Shown here: piece by piece, positions 2,319 to 8,145 of the stretch | Layout of the letters: the number at the start of each line of letters is the position of its first letter | Numbering within the stretch: the stretch's first letter is position 1 | From: Clostridiales bacterium | GTDB taxonomy: Bacteria; Bacillota; Clostridia; Lachnospirales; WQUN01 | Direction of reading: 5' to 3' | NCBI GenBank assembly: GCA_031254075.1 | Contig: JAIRVD010000171.1 | Span: 1-13,188 of the forward strand | DNA: 13,188 nucleotides | The notes under the pieces: generated by a model | Told to the model about the DNA's origin: nothing | Seen by the model: only the letters and a program-made list of their open reading frames with translations | Databases searched by the model: none | Translations under genes and position numbers: made by a program

Positions 2319-2620
2319 TGGCAGACTTAAAGTATTACGATGTCATTTTCAGACCTCTTATGACGGAAAAAAGTATGAGCCTTCTTGATGAACAAACATA
2401 TTCATTCTACGTTCATCCGCAGGCAACAAAAACGCAAATCAAAGAAGCAGTAGAGCGTCTCTTTAATAATGTAACGGTGGCGTCGGTAAACACAATGAAT
2501 ACCCATCCGAAAAGACGCCAGCGCCGCGGCTCAAGACCGGGCGAAACGGCAAAGCGCAAGAAAGCAATCGTAAAATTAACCCCGGGCAGTAGCCCCATAG
2601 AATATTTCGAAGGCATCTAA
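2318..2620 (+). CDS. rplW: 50S ribosomal protein L23
   Basis: A 100-residue protein of normal length. Its start DVIFRPLMTEKSM is the conserved L23 N-terminal motif, and the basic central segment THPKRRQRRGSRPG matches the rRNA-binding loop. L23 sits at the tunnel exit, where trigger factor and SRP dock. The ATG overlaps the last base of rplD, and its AGGAGGTG site (2302-2309) lies inside rplD, so translation is probably coupled. A 99-nt gap carrying a structured repeat follows before rplB. Confidence 0.97.
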   Translation: MADLKYYDVIFRPLMTEKSMSLLDEQTYSFYVHPQATKTQIKEAVERLFNNVTVASVNTMNTHPKRRQRRGSRPGETAKRKKAIVKLTPGSSPIEYFEGI

Positions 2621-2630
2621 ATATGAAATC

Positions 2631-2711
2631 TTTTTTCCTGACGGAAAAAGACGTTTGCAAGAAAACACGTTGAAGCGTTCGTGATTTTTTTGCAGGCTGA
2701 TTGAAAAGGAG
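2631..2711 (+). repeat. Structured intergenic element, copy 1 (upstream of rplB)
   Basis: Hairpin 1 pairs TTTTTTCC (2631-2638) with GGAAAAAG (2643-2650) over a TGAC loop, with one terminal wobble. Hairpin 2 pairs GCAAGAAAACACG (2657-2669) with CGTGATTTTTTTGC (2680-2693) across a 10-nt loop (2670-2679). It has an inner CACG/CGTG helix, a bulged A at 2684 and one G·U pair. The tail continues to the AAGGAG site at 2706-2711, 8 nt before the rplB ATG. It is the most diverged of the four clear copies, but most substitutions are compensated in the stems. Confidence 0.8.
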
Positions 2712-2719
2712 AATTCCAT

Positions 2720-3553
2720 ATGGGCGTAAAACGCTATAGACCCATAACCCCCTCCCAACGGCAAATGACGGTTTCCGATTTTGCGGAAATTACAAAGTCA
2801 ACGCCGGAAAAATCTTTGACTGTTCACCTGAAAAAACATTCGGGACGCAACGGACAAGGAAAAATAACAGTTCGTCACAGGGGCGGCGGGGCAAAAATAA
2901 AATATCGCATAATTGATTTTAAACGCGACAAGGACGGCGTTCCCGCCAAAGTTGCCGCAGTTGAATATGACCCGAATCGCACCGCAAACATCGCGCTCTT
3001 GCATTATGCCGACGGTGAAAAACGCTACATCTTGGCACCAATCGGAGTAAGCGTGGGCGACAGCTTAATGAGCGGAGTTGAAGCGGAAATTCGTCCGGGT
3101 AACGCGCTCCCGATGAAAGTAATTCCCGTCGGAACGGAAATTCACAATATAGAAATGAAGCTCGGACGCGGCGCACAAATGGTTCGTTCTGCAGGAAATG
3201 TCGCGCAGCTCATGGCGAAGGACGAAAAATACGCAACAGTACGTCTTCCTTCGGGCGAAATGCGTCTTGTTCCCGTGAACTGCCGCGCAACAATCGGGCA
3301 AGTCGGAAATCCCGACAGTGAACTTATTAATGTAGGAAAAGCGGGTAAAAAGCGTCATATGGGAATTCGTCCGACCGTTCGCGGTTCGGTTATGAACCCG
3401 AACGACCACCCCCACGGCGGTGGCGAAGGACGCGCTCCAATCGGGCGTCCCGCTCCTTCAACACCTTGGGGCAAACCTGCGCTCGGATACAAAACCCGCA
3501 AGAAAAACAAGCAAAGTAATAAATATATTGTACGCAAACGCGGCAGCAAGTAA
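2720..3553 (+). CDS. rplB: 50S ribosomal protein L2
   Basis: A 277-residue protein, the family's usual length, opening [20 protein letters not shown]. It carries the conserved [18 protein letters not shown] segment and, near the C-terminus, the [15 protein letters not shown] motif. The histidine of that motif is known to be important for peptidyl transferase activity. The family's [15 protein letters not shown] follows. L2 binds 23S domain IV and supports subunit joining. The start is set by the AAGGAG at 2706-2711. It is flanked on both sides by long gaps (99 and 82 nt), each holding a copy of the structured element. Confidence 0.98.
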
Positions 3554-3555
3554 TC

Positions 3556-3627
3556 TTTTTGCCTACGGCAAAAAACATTCGCAAAAATGCGTTGGACATT
3601 CGCGATTTTTGCTCATTGATTTGGAGG
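3556..3627 (+). repeat. Structured intergenic element, copy 2 (upstream of rpsS)
   Basis: Hairpin 1 pairs TTTTTGCC (3556-3563) with GGCAAAAA (3567-3574) over a TAC loop. Hairpin 2 pairs GCAAAAATGCG (3581-3591) with CGCGATTTTTGC (3601-3612) around the loop TTGGACATT (3592-3600), with a bulged A at 3605 and one U·G pair. The tail CTCATTGATTTGGAGG (3612-3627) merges into the rpsS ribosome binding site. It begins 2 nt after the rplB stop codon, so it fills the whole gap. Confidence 0.85.
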
Positions 3628-3635
3628 CTCCGTAA

Positions 3636-3920
3636 ATGGGTAGGTCATTAAAAAAAGGGCCGTTCTGTGACGCGCACCTGATGAAAAAAGTTGAAGCGCA
3701 AGCCAGTGTTACAAGCAAATCCGTTATCAAAACATGGTCGCGCCGTTCAACGATATTTCCCGAAATGATAGGCTTTACAATTGCCGTTCACGACGGACGC
3801 AAACATGTGCCCGTGTATATCACGGAAGACATGGTAGGGCATAAACTCGGCGAATTCGCCGTAACGCGCACATACCGCGGTCACGGAAAAGATGCTGAAA
3901 AACGAAGTAAAGTGAAATAG
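3636..3920 (+). CDS. rpsS: 30S ribosomal protein S19
   Basis: A 94-residue protein opening [20 protein letters not shown], the highly conserved S19 start. [20 protein letters not shown] and [20 protein letters not shown] follow, and the end is [17 protein letters not shown]19 forms a complex with S13 in the 30S head and contacts the A-site region. GGAGG at 3623-3627 lies 8 nt before the ATG and belongs to the conserved tail of the preceding repeat element. The TAG stop overlaps the AGGAGG of rplV. Confidence 0.98.
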
Positions 3921-3932
3921 GAGGACGTCATT

Positions 3933-4322
3933 ATGGCGAAAGGACATAGAAGCCAGTATAAACAACAGCGCAATGAAGAAAATCGCGAAACGCGTCCGCA
4001 CGCTATTCACAAATATGCCCGAATTTCCGACCGTAAAGCAAGAATTGTTCTGGAGCAAATTAAGGGCAAGGGTGTAGTTCAAGCCGCCGCGATTTTGGAT
4101 TACAATCCGCGTTATGGTGCGTATCTAATCGGCAAAGTTTTGAAATCCGCCGTAGCAAACGCGGAAGAAAATCATTCAATGGACGCCGCGGATTTATTCG
4201 TAGAAGAAGTCCTTGCAGACCAAGGGCCCACAATGAAGCGCATTCAACCGCGCGGAAAAGGCCGTGCATATAGAATCAATAAGCGCACAAGTCACATCAC
4301 AATTGTATTAAACGAGAGGTGA
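3933..4322 (+). CDS. rplV: 50S ribosomal protein L22 with an N-terminal extension
   Basis: A 129-residue protein. The L22 core begins near residue 25 with [21 protein letters not shown]. It includes the tunnel-lining beta-hairpin region around [20 protein letters not shown] and ends [10 protein letters not shown]. The first 22 or so residues ([20 protein letters not shown]) are an extra polar, basic arm absent from the shorter 110-115-residue versions of the family. The ATG at 3933 is well supported by AGGAGG at 3919-3924, so the extension appears real. rpsC begins 4 nt after the stop. Confidence 0.96.
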
Positions 4323-4326
4323 ACTA

Positions 4327-5124
4327 ATGGGTCAAAAAGTAAACCCCCACGGTCTAAGGCTGGGCATAAATAAAGAATGGGATTCTGTATGGTACGCAGA
4401 AAAAGATTTTTCAAAATATCTTTTGGAAGACCATAACATTCGTCTGTTTATAAAAAAATATTTCAGGGACAGAAAGCCGGTTCCCGTAGACCCGAAAATT
4501 GCGCGCATTACAATTAAACGCACGACAAATCGCGTGAAGGTGACGTTGCATACGGCAAGTCCGGGTATCATCATCGGGCGAAACGGCGAAGCGATAAAAA
4601 ATTTGACGGACGCGGTTCAAAGATTAGTAGACCGCAATCCCGACGAATACAAAGCAGATGTAGAAATTCAAGAAATAAAACGGCCGGAGCTTAACGCGCA
4701 GCTTGTAGCGGAAGTCATCGCGAAGGATTTGGAAAACCGCGTAACGTTCCGCCGCGCGATGAAGCAAGCGATGACGCGCACAATGAAAAACGGCGCACGC
4801 GGAATCAAAACCGCAGTTTCGGGACGCCTCGGCGGCGCGGACATCGCAAGAACCGAGCATTACCATGAAGGAACGATTCCCCTGCAAACATTGCGTGCGG
4901 ATATAGATTACGGTTTTGCCGAAGCAGACACGACTTACGGAAAACTCGGCGTAAAAGTGTGGCTGTACAAAGGCGAAGTTCTTCCCGGGCAGGCGCGCCC
5001 GAGAGAAGACCGTCCATTCCGAGGAGAAAGACGGGAAGGAGCAGGCGATTATGCTAATGCCAAAAAGGGTAAAAAGACGCAAACAGTTCCGCGGTCGAAT
5101 GACCGGAAAGGCACTGCGCGGTAA
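4327..5124 (+). CDS. rpsC: 30S ribosomal protein S3 with a C-terminal extension overlapping rplP
   Basis: A 265-residue protein, longer than the usual 210-235. The start [20 protein letters not shown] is standard. The type II KH domain is marked by [15 protein letters not shown], with its GxxG loop at 84-87. The C-terminal domain includes [13 protein letters not shown] and ends in [14 protein letters not shown] (near 220). Residues 223-265 are a basic, low-complexity tail. The last 24 residues or so are encoded by the same DNA as the start of rplP in another frame. S3 lines the mRNA entry channel and has helicase activity with S4 and S5. The ribosome binding site is GAGAGGTGA at 4314-4322. 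Confidence 0.97.
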
Positions 5125-5506
5125 TTCGATAACTTACGGAACGTTTGGGCTTGTTGCAATGGAGCCGACTTGGATAACCGCAAACCAAATTGAAGCGGCG
5201 CGTATCGTTCTAAACAGAACAATGAAACGCGGCGGAAAAGTTTGGATTAAAATTTTCCCGGACAAACCCGTTACGGAAAAACCTGCCGAAACCCGTATGG
5301 GAAGCGGAAAGGGTTCGCCGGAATACTGGGTAGCTGTTGTAAAACCCGGGCGCGTTATGTTCGAAATCGCGGGAGCAGACGAAGAAACATCTCGCCGCGC
5401 GTTAAAACTTGCAAGTTATAAACTTCCGATTCGTTGCAAAGTTGTTTCAAAAGAAGAACTTGAAGCAATTCTCGCCGAAGCGGAACCGAAAGCAATAGCA
5501 GAATAA
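5051..5506 (+). CDS. rplP: 50S ribosomal protein L16
   Basis: A 151-residue protein opening [20 protein letters not shown], the typical L16 start. The middle includes [20 protein letters not shown], then [20 protein letters not shown], the conserved loop near the peptidyl transferase centre. The protein ends with an Ala/Glu-rich tail. L16 is a late assembly protein that helps position A-site tRNA. The ATG at 5051 is preceded by AAGGAG (5036-5041, 9 nt spacing). This start lies 74 nt inside rpsC, whose stop is at 5122-5124. A second in-frame ATG at 5057 would only remove two residues. Confidence 0.97.
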
Positions 5507-5523
5507 CAAGGAGGCTGAGGTAA

Positions 5524-5733
5524 ATGAAATCTAAGAAATACCTGGAGTCCCTTAAAGATAAATCCGTGGAAGAATTAAAAGTTGAACTCATCAGCACAAA
5601 AAAGGAATTGTTCAACCTGCGCTTCCAAAACGCCACTAACCAATTGGATAACACGGCGCGAATCGGCGAAGTTCGCAAGAATATCGCAAGAATTCAAACA
5701 GTAATGACACAGCGCACCAAAGGTTTGGCATAG
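5524..5733 (+). CDS. rpmC: 50S ribosomal protein L29
   Basis: A 69-residue protein. [20 protein letters not shown] followed by [20 protein letters not shown] is the two-helix L29 hairpin with its conserved LFNLRFQ turn, and ARIQTV completes the second helix. L29 lies next to L23 at the tunnel exit. AAGGAGG at 5508-5514 lies 9 nt before the ATG. The TAG stop is part of the next gene's AGGAGG site. Confidence 0.97.
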
Positions 5734-5744
5734 GAGGTTAAAAA

Positions 5745-6008
5745 ATGGAGACTCAAGCAAGAAACTTACGCAAAACAAGAGTTGGCAAAGTTGTAAGCGA
5801 TAAAATGGATAAGACAATCGTGGTTGCAGTTGAAAACCGCGTGCGCCATCCCGTAATCGGAAAAATTGTAAAACGCACTTATAAATTAAAAGCCCACGAC
5901 GAAACCAATTCCTGCGGAATCGGCGACAGGGTTCGCGTAATGGAAACGCGTCCGCTGTCAAAAGAAAAACGTTGGCGTTTGGTTACGATTCTGGAAAAAG
6001 CGAAATAG
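5745..6008 (+). CDS. rpsQ: 30S ribosomal protein S17
   Basis: An 87-residue protein opening [20 protein letters not shown], with the OB-fold signature [20 protein letters not shown] and the end [21 protein letters not shown]17 is a primary binder of 16S rRNA near the 5' domain. AGGAGG (5732-5737) overlaps the rpmC stop, and the gene starts 11 nt after that stop. Its own TAG stop overlaps the rplN binding site in the same way. Confidence 0.97.
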
Positions 6009-6020
6009 GAGGCGTAATAA

Positions 6021-6389
6021 ATGATACAACAGGAATCAAGACTAGCCTCTGCGGATAATTCGGGCGCGAAAGAACTTCTGTGTATTCGCGTTCTCGGCGG
6101 AAGCAAACGCCGTTACGCAAATGTGGGCGATATCATTGTGGCCTCGGTCAAAGACGCAACGCCCGGAGGCGTAGTTAAAAAAGGCGAGGTCGTTAAAGCA
6201 GTTATTGTCCGCACGGTAAAGGGACTCAGCCGTCCCGACGGTTCGTCCATTCGTTTCGACCAAAACGCTGCGGTTATTATTCGCGACGATAAAACACCAA
6301 GAGGTACTCGTATATTCGGTCCGGTAGCAAGAGAATTGCGCGAAAAACAATTCACGCGCATAGTTTCCCTCGCACCCGAAGTTTTATAG
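6021..6389 (+). CDS. rplN: 50S ribosomal protein L14
   Basis: A 122-residue protein with the invariant opening [40 protein letters not shown] and [20 protein letters not shown] follow, and the end is [12 protein letters not shown], all matching L14 at its usual length. L14 forms an intersubunit bridge and is the docking site of the silencing factor RsfS. AGGAGG at 6007-6012 lies 8 nt before the ATG. In the classical arrangement this gene opens the spc part of the cluster, but no new promoter is visible in the 12-nt junction, so read-through from the S10 part is inferred. Confidence 0.98.
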
Positions 6390-6402
6390 AAACGGTGATT
6401 TT

Positions 6403-6726
6403 ATGAATAAAGTAAAACTTAAACGCGGAGATATGGTTCAGGTCATCGCAGGCAAGGAAGTCGGCAGAACAGGTCGCATTCTTCTAATCGACCGCGAGAA
6501 AAGCAGAGTCGTTGTAGAAGGCTTAAACTTGCAAACGAAACACCAAAAACCCAACCGCGCAAATCAAAAAGGCGGGATAACCCGCCGCGAAGCCCCATTG
6601 CATATTTCAAACGTAATGTTTCTTCACAAAGACAGACCAACTCGTCTCGGCTATAAATTAGAAGAAACCGACGGCAAGGTTGTAAAAAAGCGTTACGCAA
6701 AATCAACGGGCGAAGTCATTGACTAA
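6403..6726 (+). CDS. rplX: 50S ribosomal protein L24
   Basis: A 107-residue protein with an N-terminal KOW motif (KRGDMVQVIAGKEVGRTGRI, about residues 7-26), then GLNLQTKHQKPNRANQKGGI and the HISNVMFLHKD segment of the L24 family. L24 starts 50S assembly near the tunnel exit. Its binding site is poor compared with its neighbours: only GGTGAT-like bases lie 5-9 nt before the ATG, so translation may depend on coupling to rplN, 13 nt upstream. A gap with a structured element follows before rplE. Confidence 0.97.
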   Translation: MNKVKLKRGDMVQVIAGKEVGRTGRILLIDREKSRVVVEGLNLQTKHQKPNRANQKGGITRREAPLHISNVMFLHKDRPTRLGYKLEETDGKVVKKRYAKSTGEVID

Positions 6727-6734
6727 ATGTAATA

Positions 6735-6803
6735 TTTTTGCCTTACGGCAAAACCGTTTGCAAAAAACGCTTATTCGCGATTTTTTGCTCACTGATTTGG
6801 AGG
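6735..6803 (+). repeat. Structured intergenic element, copy 3 (upstream of rplE)
   Basis: Hairpin 1 pairs TTTTGCC (6736-6742) with GGCAAAA (6747-6753) over a TTAC loop. Hairpin 2 pairs GCAAAAAACGC (6760-6770) with GCGATTTTTTGC (6777-6788) around a short loop TTATTC (6771-6776), with a bulged A at 6780. The tail CTCACTGATTTGGAGG (6788-6803) ends as the rplE ribosome binding site, 6 nt before its ATG. Its loop is shorter than in the other copies, while the stem and tail are retained. Confidence 0.85.
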
Positions 6804-6809
6804 TAAGCT

Positions 6810-7355
6810 ATGAGTCGGCTTAAAGGCATCTACGAAAAAGAAGTAGTAGACGGCATGATGAAAAAGTTCGGTTATAAAAATAAAATGGCTGTACCGAAAA
6901 TTGAAAAAGTTGTCGTTAATATTGGTTTGGGCGAAGCAAAAGAAAACGCAAAAGTTATCGAACATGCCACAAATGACATCGCAACAATCACGGGACAAAA
7001 AGCCGTTGTGACAAAAGCGAAAAAATCAATTTCGGCGTTTAAGCTTCGTATGGGAATGCCGGTTGGCTGTAAGGTAACACTTCGCGGTGCGAAGATGTAC
7101 AGCTTCGTTGACAGACTTATAAATGTAGCGATTCCGCGCGTTCGCGACTTTCGCGGTGTAAGTGCTGATTCTTTCGACGGGCGTGGTAACTATACGCTCG
7201 GAATCAAAGAGCAGTTAATTTTCCCCGAAATATCTTTTGATAAAATTGATAAACTTCGCGGGATGGAAGTTGTTTTTGTAACAACCGCTAAAACAGACGA
7301 AGAAGCTCGTGAGCTACTCGCGCTGTTCGGAATGCCCTTTATTCGTCCTTCGTAA
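6810..7355 (+). CDS. rplE: 50S ribosomal protein L5
   Basis: A 181-residue protein of usual length. It contains [20 protein letters not shown], then [20 protein letters not shown], then [20 protein letters not shown] and [18 protein letters not shown]5 binds 5S rRNA in the central protuberance together with L18 and contacts S13. GGAGG at 6799-6803 is part of the preceding repeat element. A 23-nt gap separates it from rpsZ, the longest ordinary junction in the cluster. Confidence 0.98.
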
Positions 7356-7378
7356 AAGGATTCAGGAGGAATTTTAAT

Positions 7379-7564
7379 ATGGCAAAGAAAGCCCTCGTAT
7401 TAAAAGCAGCAAGAAAACCGAAGTTTGCCGTAAGGGCATATAGACGTTGCAATATCTGTGGAAGACCGCACGCTACTTTGCGTAAATACGGCGTTTGTCG
7501 TATATGCTTCCGTGAATTGGCTTACAAGGGTCAGATTCCCGGTGTAAGAAAAGCAAGTTGGTAA
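7379..7564 (+). CDS. rpsZ: 30S ribosomal protein S14, zinc-binding type Z
   Basis: A 61-residue protein of the short S14 type (also named rpsN). Two CxxC pairs, C24-x2-C27 (CNIC) and C40-x2-C43 (CRIC), form the zinc site that marks the C+ type, and the end [17 protein letters not shown] is standard. The longer zinc-free paralogue is used by many bacteria under zinc limitation and would be elsewhere if present. S14 sits in the 30S head. AGGAGGA at 7364-7370 lies 8 nt before the ATG. The small S14 type at this locus fits Bacillota. Confidence 0.98.
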
Positions 7565-7579
7565 ACTAAAAATGTATTC

Positions 7580-7659
7580 TTTTTGCCTATGGCAAAAACC
7601 ATTCGCAAAAAAACGTGTTGAACATTCACGATTTTTTTGCTCATTGAATAGCTAGGAGG
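7580..7659 (+). repeat. Structured intergenic element, copy 4 (upstream of rpsH)
   Basis: Hairpin 1 pairs TTTTTGCC (7580-7587) with GGCAAAAA (7591-7598) over a TAT loop. Hairpin 2 pairs GCAAAAAAACGTG (7605-7617) with CACGATTTTTTTGC (7627-7640) around the loop TTGAACATT (7618-7626), with a bulged A at 7631. This is the longest and most regular stem of the four copies. The tail CTCATTGAATAGCTAGGAGG (7640-7659) leads into the rpsH binding site. Confidence 0.85.
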
Positions 7660-7666
7660 ATTGCCC

Positions 7667-8065
7667 ATGTTGTCCGATCCTATTGGGGATATGCTCACAA
7701 GAATCCGCAACGCGAACATGGCAAGGCACACTACCGTTGATATGCCTTCATCCAAAATGAAGGAGTCCATCGCATCAATTTTGGTGAAAGAGGGATATGT
7801 CAAGGGTTATGAAATAGTTCCGAACGGCGTTAAAAAAACCATGCGAATCACCCTTAAATATGGCAGAAGCAAAAACGAAAAAGTCATAGCGGGTTTAAAG
7901 CGCATCTCTAAACCGGGTTTACGTGTTTACGCCGGTTGCGAAGACTTGCCAAAAGTTCTTAACGGCTTGGGGCTTGCGATTGTTTCAACAAATAAAGGCG
8001 TTATGACAGACAAAGAAGCGCGCACATTGGGTGTTGGCGGAGAAGTCTTGGCGTTCATTTGGTAA
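7667..8065 (+). CDS. rpsH: 30S ribosomal protein S8
   Basis: A 132-residue protein opening [20 protein letters not shown]. The C-terminal signature [20 protein letters not shown], followed by [13 protein letters not shown], is diagnostic of S8. S8 binds 16S helix 21 and, in E. coli, represses the spc operon by binding near the rplE start. No copy of that E. coli site is recognised here. An upstream in-frame TTG at 7661 is too close to the AGGAGG at 7654-7659; the ATG at 7667 has normal 7-nt spacing and gives the family start. Confidence 0.98.
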
Positions 8066-8139
8066 AAATTTTTTTACCTGCGAAAGCATTTGCGAAGCGA
8101 ATGTGTGAGATGAAAAATAAAATTTCAAAACAGGAGGTG
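8061..8139 (+). repeat. Diverged two-hairpin element between rpsH and rplF
   Basis: The 80-nt gap has the same layout as the four clear elements but a different sequence. An inverted repeat, GGTAAAAA (8061-8068) with TTTTTACC (8071-8078), spans the rpsH stop codon. A second hairpin pairs CATTTGC (8087-8093) with GCGAATG (8097-8103) over GAA. An A/T-rich stretch follows before AGGAGGTG (8132-8139). Short blocks such as TTTTTACCTGCG and GCATTTGCG recall the other copies. Common origin is an inference. Confidence 0.45.
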
Positions 8140-8145
8140 CAGACC

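Follow-up and report, generated by a model that had tools for sequence, protein, structure and literature searches.

A dispersed, probably MITE-like repeat next to Shine–Dalgarno sequences in the S10–spc cluster and other loci of a termite-gut Defluviitaleaceae lineage

The stretch analyzed here, called the window throughout, comprises 13,188 nt of a contig (JAIRVD010000171.1) from the Clostridiales genome GCA_031254075.1 (G000), a draft of 392 contigs that is 78.5% complete and whose nearest named relatives are metagenome-assembled genomes of the Defluviitaleaceae bearing isolate names of a termite-gut study (PMC7024585). The window covers the S10–spc ribosomal protein cluster from rpsJ to secY and beyond; the identities of rplB, rpsS, rplE, rpsH, rpsN, and rplF were confirmed by Pfam. 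Four of its intergenic gaps, before rplB (99 nt), rpsS (82 nt), rplE (83 nt), and rpsH (102 nt), each hold one copy of a repeat of about 71–80 nt, which is the element studied here. An initial annotation, made from the letters of the window, had pointed to these four gaps, and a scan of the whole window with a covariance model (filters off) returned exactly these four copies at 79–93 bits, with the next match at 14.4 bits.

Four copies in the S10–spc cluster

All four copies lie on the forward strand and share one order of parts, from 5' to 3': A-K-G-W, the 5' strand of an outer helix (P1), a first hairpin (P2), a short linker, a long second hairpin (P3), the 3' strand of P1, and then native, mostly G-rich sequence. 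Copy 1, at the rplW–rplB junction (2623–2702; 83.9 bits), has P1 at 2627–2630/2699–2702, P2 at 2631–2650, and P3 at about 2652–2698, and is followed by the Shine–Dalgarno sequence (SD) of rplB, AAGGAG, at 2706–2711. Copy 2, at the rplB–rpsS junction (3548–3621; 86.7 bits), has P1 at 3552–3555/3618–3621, where the 5' strand overlaps the rplB stop codon, P2 at 3556–3574, and P3 at about 3576–3617; the rpsS SD, GGAGG, is at 3623–3627. Between rplX and rplE, copy 3 (6727–6797; 79.1 bits) consists of P1 at 6731–6734/6794–6797, P2 at about 6735–6754, and P3 at about 6756–6793, with the rplE SD, GGAGG, at 6799–6803. Copy 4, between rpsN and rpsH (7572–7649; 92.7 bits), has P1 at 7576–7579/7646–7649, P2 at 7580–7598, and P3 at about 7600–7645. 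The sequence after it, AGCTAGGAGGATTGCCC, is native, being near-identical in relatives that lack the element, and by the same comparison so is the rpsH SD, AGGAGG, at 7654–7659.

The description of all other junctions as 23 nt or shorter does not quite hold, as the gap before rplF (8066–8145) is 80 nt long. This length and an alignment suggested a degenerate fifth copy, which was rejected: the model gave no match in that gap up to E=10 with filters off. In relatives the rplF junction is likewise long and holds unrelated inserts. The S10–spc junctions of other gut Clostridia have inserts of their own, among them tandem units before rplC in one locus (L033) and, before rpsS in two others (L037 and L038), inserts of about 540 nt that may contain a short frame.

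Pairing and covariation

The two hairpins had been recognized in the initial annotation, as had the exchanges in the inner helix of the second and the exchange of a T-A for a G-C pair in the first hairpin of copy 1, all of which are as described there; what had been missed is P1, which encloses both hairpins and covaries as well. Judged by comparison of its copies, the element is a three-way junction, in which P1 encloses P2 and P3. The letters of P1 differ between the window copies (AATC/GATT in copies 1 and 2, AATA/GATT in copy 3, where the innermost letters do not pair, and ATTC/GAAT in copy 4). P2, of 8 bp, varies little and is mostly TTTTTGCC..GGCAAAAA. In the genus of the window (g1), P3 has an inner helix and, in most copies, an A bulged out of the 3' strand and an apical loop of the GCG-TTGAAGCRT-CGC type; between subfamilies its sequence is entirely different with the pairing kept, and a tip of the form GCG-T-T/A-GAAGC-R-T-CGC is largely retained in g1 and in a second genus, g16.

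A structure model with three helices was first set up from 10 copies, and the covariance model was built from it. In these 10 copies 96% of cells are paired, 9 of 27 pairs show changes on both sides, and the covariation score was reached in none of 500 shuffles. The alignment was then extended to 116 copies from 89 sources, namely the window, 9 loci, and 79 of 80 further stretches (L222 was omitted as a duplicate of L110); it should be noted that the further stretches were chosen among the best full-length matches in the family, which biases the sample to good copies. Both-sided changes occur in 22 of 26 pairs, with 550 such cells compared with 172 ± 16 after shuffling (reached in 0 of 500) and with at most 157 when the structure was slid along the alignment; since the alignment was fitted to the structure, these pair counts lean towards it. 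The covariation claimed from four copies, too few to prove it, is thus established by the larger sets. P1 is the most informative helix: all three inner pairs are formed in 79 of 94 complete rows (22 rows were dropped), where 5000 shuffles averaged 35.5 and never exceeded 46. Most genomes with more than a few copies contain several different paired types. The outermost, fourth pair is much weaker, with all four pairs formed in 55 of the 94 rows.

Folding of single sequences was only modestly better than that of shuffled ones (z of −2.8, −1.3, −2.1, and −2.0 for copies 1–4), and in the predicted minimum-energy folds of copies 3 and 4 P2 is opened and its 5' arm pairs with the SD region. The case for the element therefore rests on the covariation. 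The paired changes had been taken to imply selection on folded RNA or on palindromic DNA, of which the RNA part is not secured by the mismatches: G-U and A-C mismatches number 13 and 5 in P1, 12 and 4 in P2, and 38 and 56 in P3, where 31 of the 56 A-C cells fall in two possibly misaligned pairs, so that there is no clean RNA signature and, in P3, no excess of G-U. The paired changes could also stem from folding at the DNA level or from palindrome correction.

In P3 of the window copies a short G+C helix is flanked by A- and T-tracts, as could be expected of intrinsic terminators or attenuators. We consider this function hardly credible, as the G+C helix has just 3–4 bp and a loop of about 9 nt, some g16 copies (L204, L223, and L225 among them) lack the T-tract and keep the fold, and termination inside the S10–spc cluster before rplB would cut off essential genes.

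Sites occupied by the element

The site statistics cover 99 sites or arrays. An SD with an open frame downstream in the sense direction is present at 76 of these, some of the frames being short or cut off and one (L164) not being a real gene start, where another copy follows. At 73 of the 99 sites, the SD and start codon lie within 25 nt of the end of P1. The reverse arrangement, with a start beyond the opposite end of the element and on the other strand, occurs at 3 sites, and of random positions in these stretches 7.7% (380 of 4950) have an SD and start within the limit. Most often 11–14 nt separate P1 from the start codon, so P1 abuts the SD, and a G-rich motif (GGAGG or close variants) starts 0–4 nt after P1 at 74 sites. 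The 23 sites without a called frame include four at tRNA-His genes, one at rpmA (L219, recognized by eye), and one in the 5' part of an RNase P RNA gene in genome G004.

Eight full-length copies were found in the window genome, before rplB, rpsS, rplE, rpsH, rpsK, rpsD, rplK, and atpD. Ribosomal protein genes, named by Pfam, by similarity, or by eye (rpmJ twice, and rpmA), are downstream at 22 of the 99 sites, including seven of these eight; the other downstream genes, groEL, hrcA, and efp among them, are very diverse. In G000 and G050 the element at rplK stands before GTGGGAG, and the true SD follows about 30 nt farther downstream. Three genomes (loci L137, L204, and L223) have in common a stretch of the type GTGGGAG..CCAC between the element and rplK (GTGGAAG in L223), which gave no Rfam match at the gathering score and may resemble an L1-binding leader site.

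All four copies adjacent to a tRNA gene adjoin tRNA-His, in three genera (L220, L211, L175, and L132), within a tRNA-Pro/Arg/His/Lys cluster of which only His and Lys were found in L132; the four genes begin with GGTGGG, GGTGGA, or GGAGGG, next to the element. In G004 (L165, contig C69), a full element lies in sense in the helix of the RNase P RNA that is also called P3, before ATGAGG, and the copy of G024 (L309, contig C4) is antisense within the gene for this RNA. In the window genome, the corresponding gene (L008 1501–1521, contig C361) holds a match to hairpin P2 alone.

A copy within an RNase P RNA, which might withstand cleavage there, the location inside operons, and the long P3 helices predicted in two g16 copies (15–17 bp; L223 and L204) would suit a signal for mRNA processing or stability, for example an RNase III site at cistron boundaries, comparable to the Correia elements, which are cleaved by RNase III according to the part of PMC10969869 consulted. 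We regard such a signal as improbable: P3 varies in length, and tRNA-His is matured by RNase P anyway.

Predicted accessibility of the SD was compared at 70 sites, 29 of the 99 having been dropped because they had no recognized motif and start or too little upstream sequence. The mean unpaired probability is 0.449 with the element, 0.436 with the element removed (P=0.78), and 0.359 with the element shuffled (P=0.0008). Sequestration of the SD by the element is thus unsupported on average, and these folding predictions fit a neutral insert.

The main rival to a neutral insert is a cis-acting RNA module at the cistron starts of highly expressed operons, which would tune or insulate translation, possibly through a switch between the 5' arm of P2 and the SD. 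It draws on the sense placement before SDs, the share of ribosomal protein genes, the strong covariation over the 116 copies, and the alternative P2–SD pairing predicted for copies 3 and 4. It is at odds with the presence of copies ahead of tRNA-His and within RNase P RNA genes (in one case antisense), with the diversity of the downstream genes, with a mean predicted accessibility that is unchanged relative to no element, with the lack of a G-U excess in P3, and with positions that are unconserved in close relatives, as detailed below. On balance we find this module unlikely, if less so than the terminators and processing signals discussed above. The same lack of positional conservation within the genus tells against the earlier proposal of cis-regulatory tuning of stoichiometry, but some RNA-level or positional role may exist, given the strict sense orientation before SDs and the sharing of the rpsK and rplE sites between genera.

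Dispersal, mobility, and related repeats

Searching the genome and its relatives with the covariance model, as the initial annotation had suggested, revealed further copies, with matches in 20 of 38 genomes of the family and 8 of 18 genera; some of these are partial, P3-only matches of other repeats, which also inflate the counts of 47, 84, and 49 in the three g16 genomes (matches of this kind were listed for two of the three). The carrier genomes are mostly drafts that are 78–95% complete (G019, 100%). In five close relatives (L025–L029), none of the 19 readable counterparts of the four window junctions holds a copy; some hold other inserts, and the rplB junction is readable in four of the five. 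Copies are instead found at other junctions of the S10 region in 3 of 29 loci of relatives (of 80 fetched): before rpsN in L028, before rpsJ, rpsN, rpsE, rpmJ, and rpsK in L032, and before rplN in L039. Of 30 loci looked at for rpsK (33 of the 38 genomes were matched), 29 were readable, L343 being cut off, and 4 have the element at this junction; tRNA-His is preceded by it in 4 of 22 readable loci (24 were looked at, all tRNA-His by ARAGORN, with L270 and L271 cut off). Of the 99 sites, 13 are tandem arrays, with a period of 70–81 nt.

Empty sites are seen most clearly at rplE in L027, which reads TAA|TGGAGG without the 71 nt of copy 3, and at rpsK in G008, where TAG|CGGAGG corresponds to TAG|element|TGGAGG in G000. 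In both, NGGAGG directly follows the stop codon, and the element stands between them when the site is occupied.

This dispersal, together with positions that are not conserved within the genus and the absence of an Rfam match, rules out a ribosomal protein leader. The element is like such leaders in being structured and in lying in ribosomal protein operons, and unlike them in its variable position and in lacking a match to Rfam, where nothing in the window reached the gathering score and 2600–7700 gave a single weak match up to E=1, to Yfr8 at half its cut-off. The case carries a caution for similar finds: covarying elements in ribosomal protein operons should be called leaders only after the rest of the genome has been checked.

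Of the two options first raised, a mobile extragenic repeat in a core operon fits better, given the dispersal, the four junctions that are empty in close relatives, the copies at other junctions elsewhere, and the arrays. We propose that the element is probably a dispersed repeat of this termite-gut Defluviitaleaceae lineage similar to miniature inverted-repeat transposable elements (MITEs), mobile, inserted in one orientation beside GGAGG-like sequence, self-folding, and preserving the accessibility of the SD. It would be mobilized in trans, now or in the past, by a separate enzyme, and would integrate in fixed orientation immediately 5' of a GGAGG-like sequence, in most cases an SD; further targets would be the GGTGGG start of tRNA-His, GTGGGAG in the leader of rplK, and an RNase P RNA hairpin. 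Insertion aimed at GGAGG-like DNA would account for the sense orientation and the SD neighborhood without a regulatory function. Even in the S10–spc cluster the element may be tolerated because its self-folding is predicted to leave the SD as accessible as before, and any effects on processing, stability, or translation would be secondary.

Several observations weigh against this interpretation. No clear target-site duplication appears at the empty rplE and rpsK sites, compared between species and not between near-identical strains. Several sites are common to more than one genome: rpsK is occupied in G000, alone of nine genomes in its genus, and in all three g16 genomes, rplE in G000 and in G047 of genus g11, rpsN in G002 and G024, rplK in G000, G050, and G024 (g1 and g16), and tRNA-His in three genera; a site before rpmJ is also common to G050 and G024. 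These could reflect old inheritance under constraint, and the sharing of rpsK, rplK, and rplE counts in favor of the cis-acting module. At 13 of the 99 sites there is neither a called gene nor a G-rich motif after P1, and the antisense RNase P RNA copy and the rplK copy (GTGGAAG) of G024 fall outside the motif set as well; either the motif is not strictly needed or the sites without it have decayed. Ribosomal protein genes are about 2% of genes, so their excess among the downstream genes is unexplained by target sequence alone. Finally, the SD is predicted to be more accessible than with a shuffled element at just 41 of the 70 sites, and than with the element removed at 30.

The three g16 genomes, which are richest in copies, also lack Y1 transposase, reverse transcriptase (RT), and IS110 domains at the thresholds used, other transposase families lying outside this search, and within the same three domain types no autonomous partner of the kind MITEs have was seen. 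RT is present in carriers G007 and G019 and the IS110 domain in G000, G004, G007, and G019; both were rejected as partners, as neither gave a match in g16. The Y1 domain PF01797 gave no match in nine carriers (G000, G002, G004, G047, G019, G046, G050, G024, and G051), one gene in carrier G007, and its other matches in genomes with no or weak model matches.

Read on the bottom strand, the element begins 3' of CCTCC and has an extrahelical T in P3; both features are typical of Y1 (HUH) chemistry. Movement by a Y1 transposase of the IS200/IS605 type or of the type associated with repetitive extragenic palindromic sequences (REPs), the REP-associated tyrosine transposases (RAYTs), would agree with orientation-specific insertion by a short motif, with the lack of an observed target duplication, with subterminal hairpins, and with the bulged base in P3. 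Despite this attractive anatomy, membership in either group was rejected, as the transposase was not found in the nine carriers and the surroundings of the G007 gene, with 12 inverted repeats listed, gave no clear match to P2 or P3; a repeat moved in this way, like REP doublets forming hairpins (REPINs) or the related PATE, therefore seems quite improbable, slightly more so than a processing signal. Tentatively, the element might represent a new class of mobile element, whose machinery would recognize SD-like GGAGG and insert a self-folding three-way-junction cassette before it in one orientation, entering a cell's most conserved operons time and again with translation left intact, and whose enzyme would lie outside the Y1, RT, and IS110 types; we hold this to be possible and somewhat doubtful. 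No match to the element was found in phages or plasmids (one query each) or in viral contigs (one pattern).

Like the very small cyanobacterial repeats of the small dispersed repeat (SDR) and STRR types, which measure about 20–30 nt and are inserted in rnpB, the element enters variable helices of the RNase P RNA; those repeats are not known to target SDs. The element shares with MITEs, as the consulted part of PMC10969869 characterizes them, that it is small, non-coding, A+T-rich, folding, and dispersed in the genome and its relatives. It differs from them in a terminal inverted repeat of only 3–4 bp whose letters vary between copies with pairing kept, in having no target duplication seen in the between-species comparison, and in its fixed orientation relative to genes. 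REPINs, which in the account drawn on here (part of PMC3116915) consist of two REPs in inverted orientation, are linked to a RAYT gene, show compensatory changes, and form clusters, resemble the element in being hairpin-forming, non-autonomous, clustered, and compensated; the element in contrast has two different hairpins in fixed order with a closing helix, and no Y1 match in the nine carriers.

The pneumococcal BOX, RUP, and SPRITE repeats are, in the passages of PMC3049150 consulted, short folding interspersed repeats that are judged parasitic, transcribed within untranslated regions, and over-represented between convergent genes. Compared by description, the element is likewise a short, strongly folding interspersed repeat of a Gram-positive lineage, and unlike them it stands in sense before SDs: whereas repeats of the pneumococcal type are over-represented where harm is small, it repeatedly occupies a sensitive spot before the SDs of essential genes in different lineages. 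As a kind it ranks alongside MITEs, REPINs, and BOX elements and has all the tested membership features of none of them, and among the top-ranked results from a partial literature collection we recognized no description of a repeat family targeted to SDs. How such an element is aimed at ribosome-binding sites, and how structured inserts in 5' leaders become neutral or useful, are questions that it makes testable.

Three other MITE-like families, with the outer arms TATACCGGAACGCG.., GGCAACCTCCGAAAACC.., and TATAGCGGATTAA.., carry the P3 tip CGCG-TTGAAGCRTT-CGCG with a bulged A, or close variants; their loci are L142–L145, L147, and L148 (G000), L149–L162 without L159 (G000), and L244–L260 (G007). 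Repeated P3-like matches near contig ends in G007, considered as a possible autonomous element, were rejected as such and belong to another MITE-like family, D. The two families in the window genome served as a control: their 19 copies, from the 21 weak matches fetched besides the RNase P one (L146 and L159 were left out, and ten more matches were not fetched), show no SD adjacency. With frames counted from 90 codons, stricter than for the element sites, sense frames downstream of the control copies either overlap the repeat or begin at least 55 nt away, and open frames of at least 120 codons contain 7 of the 19. To judge by these sequence comparisons, several repeats of the lineage seem to share the P3-tip hairpin as a module.

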